Origin: a virus
Length of the DNA stretch: 31,540 nucleotides
Direction: 5' to 3' (one strand)
Virus record (IMG/VR): IMGVR_UViG_3300021185_000988
Location: 1 to 31,540 of that record
The translations under genes and the position numbers were made by a program. Within the stretch, counting starts at the first letter, position 1. Each line of letters opens with the position of its first letter. The notes under the pieces were generated by a model. It was not told the origin of the DNA. It was given only the letters and a program-made list of their open reading frames with translations, and did not search any database. This document shows positions 12,610 to 30,573 of this stretch, in pieces.

Positions 12610-12650
12610 AATTTAGTCTATTTGTAAAAAAAATGCAAATAGACTAAATT
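12610..12650 (+). repeat. Perfect 15-bp inverted repeat upstream of P4
   Basis: AATTTAGTCTATTTG (12610-12624) pairs perfectly with CAAATAGACTAAATT (12636-12650); the 11-base loop is mostly A. No U-run follows, so it is not a standard intrinsic terminator. It ends six bases before the -35 box of P4. It may be an RNA 3'-end or processing structure for the uvsX-thyX transcript. Confidence 0.7.
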
Positions 12651-12720: not shown

Positions 12721-13062
12721 ATGATTACGATTCACCAAATTCAGTTAACTAGCGATCAAATCGATGCCGTAAACGCTGGCGAAACTGTACCAGCATTTGA
12801 AACAAAAAACAAATTGTCTATCTTCGGTGCTGACAGATTTGACTCAAGCATGTTCTCAATGTTTACTGAAGCTTATACAGTAGCAACTACTCGTTTAGAG
12901 CAAGCTTTTGAATGGACTAACCTTTGGAATAGACAAGATATGGTTGAAGCAATTGGCGATCGTAACCATAGTTCTTCTGTAGGCGATATCTTTGAATTGA
13001 ATGGAGAATTCTTTCTTTGTTCAAATATTGGTTTTAAACAAATTAAAGTGGAGGCAGTATAA
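12721..13062 (+). CDS. Hypothetical early protein, 113 aa
   Basis: First gene after P4; ATG 12721 follows TATGGAGAC. I do not recognise it with confidence. The N-terminus is hydrophilic and mixed, the centre is aromatic and probably helical (FTEAYTVATTRLEQAFEWTNLWN), and the end (SSSVGDIFELNGEFFLCSNIGFKQI) resembles the small beta-hairpin module, SxSVGDxx...GF, found at the end of several phage and plasmid proteins of unknown function. Probably an early host-interaction protein, from position only. Confidence 0.65.
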   Translation: MITIHQIQLTSDQIDAVNAGETVPAFETKNKLSIFGADRFDSSMFSMFTEAYTVATTRLEQAFEWTNLWNRQDMVEAIGDRNHSSSVGDIFELNGEFFLCSNIGFKQIKVEAV

Positions 13063-14213: not shown

Positions 14214-14220
14214 TTAACTG

Positions 14221-14249
14221 TGTACATTCTCTTTTTTATGTGGTATAAT
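14221..14249 (+). promoter_or_regulatory. Early-type promoter P5
   Basis: TGTACA 14221-14226, 17-base spacer ending in TGTGG, TATAAT 14244-14249. Predicted start near 14256, then AAGGAGAGAG and the ATG at 14279. Preceded by the same 19-base block as P4. Confidence 0.87.
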
Positions 14250-14278
14250 GTTTACATAATATCATAAGGAGAGAGAAA

Positions 14279-14542
14279 ATGGGTATTAAAGTAAATAAAA
14301 ACCGCGTATCAGATGCTTACATCGGAACATTTGACTATAAAAATAGTGATGATATGTTTCAACTTGATGATCTGCGTACTATGGTTAAACACATGAACCG
14401 CGACCTGCGTGAGGCTAATATGGACTATCAGTTCTATGTTAAGTGTCAAGGTCGCGGACATCGTCAAGGCGTTCGACGCTATAATCAATCACTGCCACTT
14501 CCATTGGCAGAAAAGGTAGACGCGTACATCTACCGTCGGTGA
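14279..14542 (+). CDS. Hypothetical protein, 87 aa
   Basis: Basic soluble protein with a strong SD (AAGGAGAGAG). I do not recognise it. DDLRTMVKHMNRDLREANMDYQFYVKCQGRGHRQGVRRYNQSLP (quoted as a region, residues ~30-72) is rich in Arg and His and could bind nucleic acid; the end DAYIYRR is short and charged. It overlaps or abuts the SprT-like gene that follows and shares promoter P5 with it. Confidence 0.68.
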   Translation: MGIKVNKNRVSDAYIGTFDYKNSDDMFQLDDLRTMVKHMNRDLREANMDYQFYVKCQGRGHRQGVRRYNQSLPLPLAEKVDAYIYRR

Positions 14543-21378: not shown

Positions 21379-21386
21379 TATAAATA
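21379..21386 (+). promoter_or_regulatory. T4-type late promoter within a start-codon hairpin
   Basis: TATAAATA in a 49-base intergenic gap. Predicted start near 21392, at the end of the left arm of the hairpin at 21381-21420, so late RNA would lack most of that arm. Confidence 0.8.
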
Positions 21387-21420
21387 GTCCTATACTATTA
21401 ATTTAATGTAGGGCTATTTA
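21381..21420 (+). promoter_or_regulatory. Translation-blocking leader hairpin
   Basis: Left arm 21381-21392 pairs with right arm 21409-21420 over 12 base pairs, with one G-U pair and a 16-base loop. The right arm contains the only SD-like sequence (TAGGG) and runs up to the ATG at 21421. Read-through RNA could fold it; RNA started at the embedded late promoter could not. Confidence 0.7.
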
Positions 21421-21789
21421 ATGCAACTCTTTGATGAACTGACTAATGATAATTTCATGCTATATGCTTCTAAGTTTTATAGCAATAAACAATGCACAGA
21501 AGTGGAAGAGTTCTATGAAGACCTAAACCGCTTCAAATATTTAAAACGATTATTGAGACGTTATGAAAGTAACGGCGAACTACAAGAAAGGCTAATACTA
21601 AATCATCTTATAGTTTTATTCAATGTATTTGGTATACAACATGCGAAGAGAATGGTATTCTTTAAAACAGATCCAACATCTCTTTCAGCTTTAAAAACGT
21701 TTTTGGTATACCTCAATTATTTAAAAGAAGATGAGTACGTTGAAATACCATTAGATCTTCGTATTATAAATGTGTTAAGGAATCTATAA
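21421..21789 (+). CDS. Conserved T4-like phage protein, 122 aa
   Basis: Helical protein with the pattern QLFDELTNDNFMLYASKFY, EEFYEDLNRFKYLKRLLRRY and LQERLILNHLIVLFNVFG, which I recall as strongly conserved among marine T4-like phages, but without an established function known to me. No membrane segment. Its translation start is directly preceded by the hairpin/late promoter. It overlaps the next gene by one base (TAATG). Neighbouring late genes suggest a head- or morphogenesis-related role. Confidence 0.8.
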   Translation: MQLFDELTNDNFMLYASKFYSNKQCTEVEEFYEDLNRFKYLKRLLRRYESNGELQERLILNHLIVLFNVFGIQHAKRMVFFKTDPTSLSALKTFLVYLNYLKEDEYVEIPLDLRIINVLRNL

Positions 21790-28863: not shown

Positions 28864-29303
28864 TGATAAATGAAAATATTAATCGGCCAACTCTACATGA
28901 GATTTTTACCAAAGTAGCCGAAGCTAAGACACGTGAAGAAAAGAGTAAAGTGCTAAAGCACTATGATACTCCTCATGTACGTTACTTTTTAAAAGGAGCG
29001 TTTGATGATTCTATTGAATGGCTGATACCAAAAGGTGCACCTCCATATAAAGAAACAACACCAAAAGAAGCTGACCATGTGCGTAAGCATATTGTTAAGC
29101 GGTTTAAGTTCTTTGTTAAAGGCGGACCAAAGGTTAAGTCAGAAACACATCGTGAAGTTATGTTTATTCGTATTTTAGAGTCTATTGATCCTAAGGATGC
29201 TGAGCTTCTTATTCTATGTAAGGATAAAGAGTTCACCGGCAAGTTTAAAGGACTAACTAAAAAACTAGTGACAGATACTTTCCCAGGACTTATCAAAATG
29301 TGA
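28863..29303 (+). CDS. DUF6433-like conserved phage protein, 146 aa
   Basis: Starts on the last base of rnh (TAATG). The pattern LHEIFTKVAEAKTREEKSKV, KHYDTPHVRYFLKGAFDDSIEWLIPKGAPPY (span ~34-63), REVMFIRILESIDPKDAELL and FKGLTKKLVTDTFPGLI is one I associate with DUF6433, widespread in marine T4-like phages. Helical, no catalytic motif. Function unknown; its place after rnh suggests replication-related or late regulation. It is followed by a late promoter and a terminator. Confidence 0.78.
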   Translation: MINENINRPTLHEIFTKVAEAKTREEKSKVLKHYDTPHVRYFLKGAFDDSIEWLIPKGAPPYKETTPKEADHVRKHIVKRFKFFVKGGPKVKSETHREVMFIRILESIDPKDAELLILCKDKEFTGKFKGLTKKLVTDTFPGLIKM

Positions 29304-29308
29304 ATTTG

Positions 29309-29316
29309 TATAAATA
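29309..29316 (+). promoter_or_regulatory. T4-type late promoter
   Basis: TATAAATA six bases after the stop of the DUF6433-like gene. Predicted start near 29323; the terminator at 29357-29389 would cut the RNA to about 65 bases unless antitermination occurs, in which case it serves the 58-aa gene at 29462. Confidence 0.7.
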
Positions 29317-29356
29317 ATTCTATGAAGAACAATAATAATGTTTTCATAGCAAACTC

Positions 29357-29389
29357 AGGATCGCCCATTTTGTGGGACGATCCTTTTTT
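29357..29389 (+). terminator. Strong intrinsic terminator
   Basis: AGGATCG (29357-29363) and CCCA pair with TGGG and CGATCCT (29378-29384); one bulged A at 29377; loop TTTTG; six T follow. Closes the rnh operon, and perhaps a short late RNA. Confidence 0.88.
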
Positions 29390-29461
29390 ACTTTTTGACC
29401 TAAAAAAAGGAGGAGTGATATCTTAACCCGTCGTAAGCAGTCAACGAGGAGGAAAGATCCC

Positions 29462-29638
29462 ATGTTATATGGTCCGCAAATCGAGCGCCTTAAGAAAGAT
29501 TCTAAAGAGCTCAAACATTATATAAAACGATTAGAGAAAGAAGGTAATAATCTCCTAGCATTTAAGCTACAGAAAAAAGCGGCATATCTCTCTTCACGGA
29601 TAGACGATATGCGCGAATATACTGCAACTGCAAAATAA
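29462..29638 (+). CDS. Small coiled-coil protein, 58 aa
   Basis: ATG 29462 with a perfect SD (AGGAGGA at 29447-29453, eight bases away), and 58 codons of strongly helical, charged sequence: IERLKKDSKELKHYIKRLEK followed by LLAFKLQKKAAYLSSRIDDM. The heptad spacing of Leu/Ile suggests a short coiled coil or dimeric helix. I do not recognise it. Too short for usual length cut-offs but well supported by its SD and composition. It sits alone between the terminator and promoter P8. Confidence 0.75.
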   Translation: MLYGPQIERLKKDSKELKHYIKRLEKEGNNLLAFKLQKKAAYLSSRIDDMREYTATAK

Positions 29639-29641
29639 AGG

Positions 29642-29670
29642 TGTACAAAGTCCTCACTTTATGGTATAAT
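29642..29670 (+). promoter_or_regulatory. Early-type promoter P8
   Basis: TGTACA 29642-29647, 17-base spacer ending in ATGG, TATAAT 29665-29670. Predicted start near 29677. A late box follows immediately, so the gene at 29700 can be served in both phases. Confidence 0.85.
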
Positions 29671-29696
29671 TATAAATAATCGTAAAGTGAGGATTT
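29648..29696 (+). promoter_or_regulatory. SD-sequestering inverted repeat spanning P8 and a late promoter
   Basis: TCCTCACTTTA (29651-29661) pairs perfectly with TAAAGTGAGGA (29683-29693), extendable to 14 pairs with one G-U. The right arm holds the SD (GAGGA) of the gene at 29700. The left arm lies upstream of both predicted starts, so only read-through RNA can form it. Confidence 0.72.
29671..29678 (+). promoter_or_regulatory. T4-type late promoter adjoining P8
   Basis: TATAAATA directly abutting the -10 box of P8. Predicted start near 29684, about 15 bases before the ATG and just in front of the SD. Confidence 0.7.
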
Positions 29697-29699
29697 TAA

Positions 29700-30230
29700 A
29701 TGGAAAGATATATTAAATTATATCAGGACGTCATTGAACCAGGCGTTCGTGACTCAATGATTGAATTATTTAATCAGCAGGACTCCGTACAGCGTAGTAG
29801 TCCTATCATGAATTTTACTGAAATTAACTTAAATCAAAACCGAGAGGTTTGGGGTCAGTATACTGACTACCTTACCTATAACTTTAAACAAGTGCTAGAA
29901 CAATACCGTACTGAGTTAGAGATTACAACTTGGCCGGAAAAATATGCATTTGAAGAAATAAGGATGAAGAAATATGAACCCGATATTGGAAAATTTGATC
30001 AGCACGTCGATGTGGGCGATTACAGCTCTGCTCGTCGTTTCCTTGTGTTTTTTGCTTATCTCAATGACGGTGTGGGTGGCGAGACGTCTTTCGACACGAT
30101 GGGGATTAATATACCTCGCCGTGCTGGCAGCGTTCTTGTATTTCCACCACACTGGACATATCCTCACGCCGGTCGAGTATGCAGACATGATCCTAAGTAC
30201 ATCATAGGCTCTTATCTACATTATGTCTGA
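29700..30230 (+). CDS. 2-oxoglutarate/Fe(II)-dependent oxygenase (P4H-like), 176 aa
   Basis: Double-stranded beta-helix oxygenase using Fe(II) and 2-oxoglutarate. Iron ligands: His102 and Asp104 (QHVDV) and His156 (YPHAG); the 2-oxoglutarate anchor should be Lys166 in DPKYIIGSY. FFAYLNDGVGGETSF, PRRAGSVLVFPP and the final SYLHYV are family hallmarks of phage P4H-type proteins. Substrate is unknown: protein side chains, or nucleobases as for other phage-encoded hydroxylases, are both possible. SD GAGGA. Overlaps the next gene by eight bases. Dual early/late control is predicted. Confidence 0.88.
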   Translation: MERYIKLYQDVIEPGVRDSMIELFNQQDSVQRSSPIMNFTEINLNQNREVWGQYTDYLTYNFKQVLEQYRTELEITTWPEKYAFEEIRMKKYEPDIGKFDQHVDVGDYSSARRFLVFFAYLNDGVGGETSFDTMGINIPRRAGSVLVFPPHWTYPHAGRVCRHDPKYIIGSYLHYV

Positions 30231-30573
30231 TCAAACGGTGAAGGAAAAGATCCGCCAACGTAGATCGCAAATGTTGGTGCATTCTTGCTTATATTATGAA
30301 ATGGATGAATCTATTGTGTCCGATGATAAGTGGCAGCAATGGGCAAATGAACTTGCTTTGTTGCAGAATGAAAATCCTGATGATTGCCAACTAGATTTCT
30401 ATGATGAAGAATTTATTGACTGGGATGGAACGTCTGGTGCATTCTTACCATTAAAGGATATTAATGTAAGAAATAAGGCAGCACATATATTAAGAATAAG
30501 TGAAAATAGTGATGTACAAACAGATAAAAATGTGGTACAATATACAGGTACATTAGAGGAGTTTATATCATGA
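30223..30573 (+). CDS. Stand-alone LigA domain Ia-like protein, 116 aa
   Basis: Residues ~8-50 resemble domain Ia, the NMN-binding N-terminal domain of NAD-dependent DNA ligases (RRSQMLVHSCLYYEMDES, then IVSDDKWQQWANELALLQ, P), i.e. the YY..D.P.ISD..YD..L pattern, with Trp where LigA has Tyr and no Asp after it. There is no adenylation domain, so it cannot be a ligase by itself. The remainder (DDCQLDFYDEEFIDWDGTSG) is acidic. Similar short proteins are known in phages as LigA-related (memory). Role could be NAD or NMN sensing; unproven. Ends inside promoter P9's downstream region. Confidence 0.6.
   Translation: MSDQTVKEKIRQRRSQMLVHSCLYYEMDESIVSDDKWQQWANELALLQNENPDDCQLDFYDEEFIDWDGTSGAFLPLKDINVRNKAAHILRISENSDVQTDKNVVQYTGTLEEFIS
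30513..30541 (+). promoter_or_regulatory. Early-type promoter P9
   Basis: TGTACA 30513-30518, 17-base spacer ending in TGTGG, TACAAT 30536-30541 (one mismatch). Predicted start near 30548; TTAGAGGAG precedes the ATG at 30570. Lies in the 3' end of the LigA-like gene. Confidence 0.78.

Follow-up and report, generated by a model that had tools for sequence, protein, structure and literature searches.

By its sequence, the window (the whole stretch of 31,540 bases analyzed here, virus record IMGVR_UViG_3300021185_000988) comes from a T4-like myovirus of marine type, and includes genes for DNA polymerase, UvsX, DnaB-type helicase, thymidylate synthase, NrdA/NrdB, T4 RNase H, and a DUF6433 protein. 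Between the small gene orf72 and a 2OG-Fe(II) oxygenase gene lie an early-type promoter and a hairpin that covers the SD sequence of the oxygenase gene (Table 1). The closest annotated homologues of the oxygenase, all with 46% identity or less, are found in phages of Pelagibacter, Methylophilales, and cyanobacteria. No match was obtained by blastn of positions 29300-30300 against phage records, nor was any Rfam match detected at the gathering score anywhere in the window.

Table 1. Positions, in the window, of the features of the oxygenase leader, the upstream late unit, and the hairpin of the phrog_407 gene
Feature	Position	Strand	Remark
Late box TATAAATA upstream of orf72, likely late source of read-through	29309..29316	+	Conserved
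Intrinsic-terminator-like hairpin with T run, between late box and orf72	29357..29392	+	Conserved sequence
orf72, source of read-through RNA	29420..29638	+	Listed from ATG 29462; probable AUC start at 29420
-35 element TGTACA (P8 of the first-pass annotation)	29642..29647	+	Kept in 5/5 leader variants of the 2OG gene
Left arm TCCTCACTTTA, anti-SD, within promoter spacer	29651..29661	+	Exact repeat, fold, covariation with right arm
Extended -10 element TGGTATAAT	29662..29670	+	TG 29662-29663, TATAAT 29665-29670
Late-type box TATAAATA	29671..29678	+	Confined to relatives of 94% identity or higher
Predicted early start site	29677	+	Inferred, 7 nt past -10
Right arm TAAAGTGAGGA, containing SD GAGG (29689-29692)	29683..29693	+	Exact complement of left arm
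2OG-Fe(II) oxygenase gene, under predicted hairpin control	29700..30230	+	PF13640 8e-07, phrog_61 1e-33
Late hairpin of phrog_407 gene: TATAAATA (21379) in left arm, SD in right arm	21379-21421, gene at 21421	+	Kept with jointly changed arms in relatives of ~87-100% identity

Within the oxygenase gene, an overprinted gene is probable from its reading frame at 29974-30207 (+), where a 77-aa membrane-type ORF lies in the +1 frame. In all carriers of the 2OG gene, this frame runs for 78-79 codons without a stop, the chance of which, given the 2OG protein, is 0.014 for the window and 0.001 for L037, and the fourfold sites of L037 are less variable in the overlap (11/30 vs 14/21). In L279, L280, and L283, the 2OG frame is truncated and contains stops while the 77-aa-type ORF is intact, and in L289-L291 this ORF alone survives, immediately after an early promoter and hairpin.

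The hairpin over the SD sequence and the promoter inside it

The arms described as perfect in the first-pass annotation are indeed exact complements with all coordinates correct, and the right arm includes the SD sequence of the oxygenase gene as had been proposed, GAGG being located 11 nt upstream of the ATG. The arms lengthen to 29647-29661 and 29683-29697 with 14 of the 15 positions paired, and further pairs are added toward the loop upon folding. The free energy of the 29631-29730 fold is -27.7 kcal/mol (z -6.6), and none of the shuffled sequences was equally stable. The predicted pairing of the SD sequence is 1.00 in the read-through RNA as opposed to 0.25 in the RNA started at the promoter. 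Perfect repeats with arms of 11 nt or more and a loop of 3-40 nt number three in the window vs 0.475 per dinucleotide shuffle, and only the 29651/29683 pair falls on an SD sequence; the chance origin of the hairpin was rejected on the basis of this expectation and of the covariation of the arms (see below). Elsewhere in the window, a perfect 15-nt inverted repeat with an 11-nt loop is present at 12610-12650, about 70 nt upstream of the gene at 12721, and masks no SD sequence.

The spacer between the -35 and -10 elements is 17 bp in length and contains the left arm; TATAAT and TATAAATA are both situated between the arms, in agreement with the initial description. A search of the window for TGnTATAAT identified seven members of one motif, each in front of a gene, with -10 elements at 2607, 4374, 8700, 14241, 23358, 29662, and 30533. 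The motif takes the form GTGTACA, GTTTACA, or ATGTACA followed downstream by TGTGGTATAAT. In the early promoters of T4-like phages, the -35 is GTTTAC, some phages favoring G at -33, and the -10 resembles TATAAT (PMC1524935). Because the seven-member motif, with its GTTTAC-like -35 and extended TATAAT -10, is close to this T4 early consensus, P8 is best called an early-type promoter.

Covariation of the arms among the oxygenase relatives

Among the relatives of the oxygenase gene, a total of five leader variants were found, with protein identity from 100 to 62% and one gene order, and the -35, the -10, and the hairpin are kept in all five. The early promoter that had been assigned to the hairpin is thus retained in every hairpin variant, the motif always lying inside the hairpin, and RNA from the predicted start site would lack the 5' arm. 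In the leader alignment, both partners have changed in four pairs (A-U/G-C/C-G; C-G/U-A; U-A/C-G; G-U/G-C/C-G), and the invariant pairs are those fixed by the SD sequence plus one more. The covariation score is 0.314, as compared with 0.159 for shuffled alignments (0/500) and at most 0.094 for slid controls. Across these variants, the SD pairing was predicted to be 1.00 in the read-through RNA vs 0.07-0.56 in the promoter RNA. The distant 2OG homologues, with 48% identity or less, are found in other gene contexts and without the hairpin-promoter leader. In two of the loci with a distant 2OG gene, L011 and L016, a different hairpin, TGCCTGT/ACAGGCA, is located directly 5' of the start codon, about 15-50 nt before the 2OG start; the L016 version, TGTCTGT/ACAGACA, represents a paired change, and a clear SD sequence is absent in both.

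The arms, placed symmetrically about 32 bp apart on either side of the -10, might also be taken as two half-sites of a DNA operator that flank the -10 and bind a repressor. The arm sequences, however, vary freely yet in pairs, are wholly different between downstream genes (see below), and have only the SD complement in common. Since the pairing is conserved but the arm sequence is not, the operator reading is extremely improbable and was rejected.

The distribution of the late-type box among the same variants bears on the other half of the initial reading, a late promoter between the arms. If the box at 29671 drives late mRNA starting in the right arm, the leader would be a classic switch of the T4 e/soc/I-TevI type, in which early and middle read-through RNA is silenced and the gene is expressed mainly late. 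In late RNA starting at about 29684, the SD sequence would be largely free, and a clear late-type example is found at 21379-21420 in the same phage. In the window, and in relatives of 94% identity or higher, TATAAATA is indeed located between the arms, but it is absent in the L037, L039, and L043 types, in which the hairpin and the early promoter are both retained. Moreover, it is close to the usual A/T-rich stretch that follows TATAAT in the sister promoters, and the match at 29671 may be due to chance in A/T-rich sequence beside TATAAT. Because the box is kept only at 94% identity or higher, the late half of the initial reading is weak; the leader differs from the T4 type with a late (gp55) near promoter in having an early promoter in all variants, and the classic switch is considered unlikely.

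orf72 and the genes that follow it

The gene upstream of the hairpin had been listed from ATG 29462 as a protein of 58 aa, one member of a wider family; when extended upstream, it comprises 72 codons (orf72). Its proposed role as the source of read-through RNA is retained, but its start is probably not at 29462 but at the AUC at 29420, as judged from the following sequence characteristics. AGGAGG is followed after 6 nt by ATC TTA, the codons between 29420 and 29461 are conserved, with changes at third bases and, in L043, an indel of 6 nt that keeps the frame, and in related orf72 loci the corresponding position, 6-9 nt past an SD sequence, is occupied by AUC, AUA, or AUU. Some distant orf72 loci have the downstream ATG only.

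The late box upstream of orf72 is located 111 nt (110-113) 5' of the orf72 start in nearly all 2OG-type loci, and ATAAATA, followed by the terminator-like hairpin, is present in 36 of the 42 distinct orf72 upstream regions. No other conserved promoter for orf72 was seen in these regions. Within 29309-29392 (+), the late box, a small hairpin CTATGAA/TTCATAG, and the terminator-like stem with its T run are all conserved, and this segment possibly specifies a small late RNA of ~70 nt or, alternatively, an attenuator.

A total of 80 loci were found with orf72 as the query, and in most of them an early-type promoter is located directly past the orf72 stop. The first gene after orf72 varies: besides the oxygenase, it encodes a ligase-like protein (L292, L298), an MRQLELFP protein (L310, L314, L316, L322), or a small membrane protein (L289). 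At those loci the promoter spacer is complementary to the SD sequence of the next gene, with duplex energies from -20 to -31 kcal/mol, and the SD pairing predicted for L289, L292, L298, and L310/L314 is 1.00 in the read-through RNA vs 0.28-0.58 in the promoter RNA. Where a pyrimidine-dimer-glycosylase-like gene comes first, no such complement is present (-2.5 to -9.8). Mismatched pairs of spacer and SD sequence gave a mean of about -5.3, and 65 of 3,168 reached -15 or lower; the strict filter for this background dropped the 2OG leaders and also some unrelated promoters. When downstream gene types were counted, the Fisher p was about 1e-4, which serves as a guide only, because the gene grouping was chosen after seeing the data and the filter had dropped the 14279 case. 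Among 68 early-promoter clusters in 1.24 Mb, strong pairing of spacer and SD sequence was found only in the 2OG leaders and at the 14279 gene of the window, the latter being the one other surveyed early promoter to reach -16. At 14219-14279 (+), a second early-promoter hairpin is thus present, in which the spacer TTCTCTTTTTTATG pairs with the SD sequence CATAAGGAGAGA; it is restricted to relatives of 95% identity or higher and is lost at 74%.

The same set of loci is informative on whether the hairpin might instead end or process the transcript arriving from upstream, as a terminator or RNA-processing site, with SD masking incidental. A run of 3-5 T follows the stem in several 2OG variants, but is absent in L043, L289, L292, L298, and L310; in addition, the loop is large and the arm always matches the SD sequence of the next gene. 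The terminator reading was rejected for the lack of conservation of the T run, and this role for the hairpin is regarded as very improbable. Altogether, the recurrence of the hairpin before different genes and the covariation of its arms strongly support the two proposals that the left arm serves both as the P8 spacer and as an RNA arm and that the SD sequence is masked in read-through RNA.

Proposed early expression and insulation from read-through, and known systems

From these features we infer promoter use, the start site, translational silencing, and the late nature of the silenced RNA. The leader probably unites an early promoter and a translational insulator, such that only the RNA started at the promoter would be translated and the read-through RNA would be silent. 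Transcription from the early sigma70-type promoter (-35 at 29642, -10 at 29665, start at about 29677) would generate a short leader without the left arm, and therefore the SD sequence should be open and the first gene translated. Late RNA that gets past the terminator would run via orf72 into the next gene; with both arms included, it would form a hairpin of 17-19 bp on the SD sequence and not be translated. The hairpin would thus hide the SD sequence of the next gene on late RNA, and its own early promoter would supply the readable message. Since a conserved late box (29309) belongs to the upstream unit itself, the gene is likely to be on early and off on late read-through.

Ribosomes ending at 29638, about 9-12 nt before the stem, might disturb it. 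If those finishing orf72 melt the stem, translation would be coupled, and read-through RNA would be translated in proportion to orf72. This proximity of the orf72 stop in the window is, however, variable among the relatives (from ~9 to 29 nt), and a very stable stem is retained in each unit along with a promoter of its own, leaving the coupling improbable.

As a wider proposal, more tentative than that for the oxygenase leader itself, the arrangement could be a position-bound insulator behind the late-transcribed orf72, where the early-promoter spacer has repeatedly been shaped as the complement of whichever SD sequence follows, the first gene being on early and off late, opposite to the late hairpins of T4. 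Counting against the insulator are the terminator-like element that separates the late box from orf72, the SD pairing above zero (up to 0.58) in the promoter RNA, and the lack of the hairpin where the glycosylase gene, or some others, comes first after orf72, the last of which indicates that insulation behind orf72 is not always needed. If the insulator is real, the hairpin trick of T4 would be a general way of setting the time of expression, silencing early genes on late RNA as well; promoter spacer DNA, usually held to be free to vary, could encode RNA information; and the leader would offer a compact natural design for genes answering solely to their own promoter.

SD-sequestering hairpins combined with promoter RNA lacking the 5' arm are known for T4 e, soc, 49, and I-TevI, and also for I-TevII/III, segB, and Aeh1 mobE (PMC3014915, PMC2988022). 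In T4 e, soc, and I-TevI, the early RNA is silent and the late RNA readable (PMC3014915, PMC2988022), and the endonuclease-specific promoters of T4 are middle or late, never early (PMC2988022). The oxygenase leader resembles those of T4 e, soc, 49, and I-TevI in the stable stem predicted over the SD sequence on the longer RNA, in the SD sequence left free on the near-promoter RNA, in its T4-like phage setting, and in the compensatory changes among relatives, but differs in that the near promoter is late in T4 (middle for some endonucleases) and early sigma70-type here. With an early near promoter whose spacer forms the 5' arm, the order of expression in time is expected to be opposite to that in T4. 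The trick itself is known from T4 e, soc, and I-TevI; on the best reading, the new element is the early, rather than late, promoter within the hairpin. A literature search of open-licence papers for an early promoter inside an SD-masking stem gave only a T4 review.

Protection of a transposase from outside transcription is known for IS200 (PMC3196728). The transposases of IS10 and IS50 are likewise protected. The oxygenase leader is similar to these elements in that RNA from outside is predicted to fold on the SD sequence and not be translated, but no transposase or insertion sequence is present, the arms are not the ends of an element, and the product is a 2OG oxygenase encoded by a phage gene with an early promoter.

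The closest parallel in the window itself is the hairpin of the phrog_407 gene. As in the oxygenase hairpin, the SD sequence is paired in the read-through RNA, the promoter box lies in the left arm, and the structure is kept in relatives, but the box is late, representing the classical T4 arrangement; the phage therefore probably uses both late and early versions of the hairpin.
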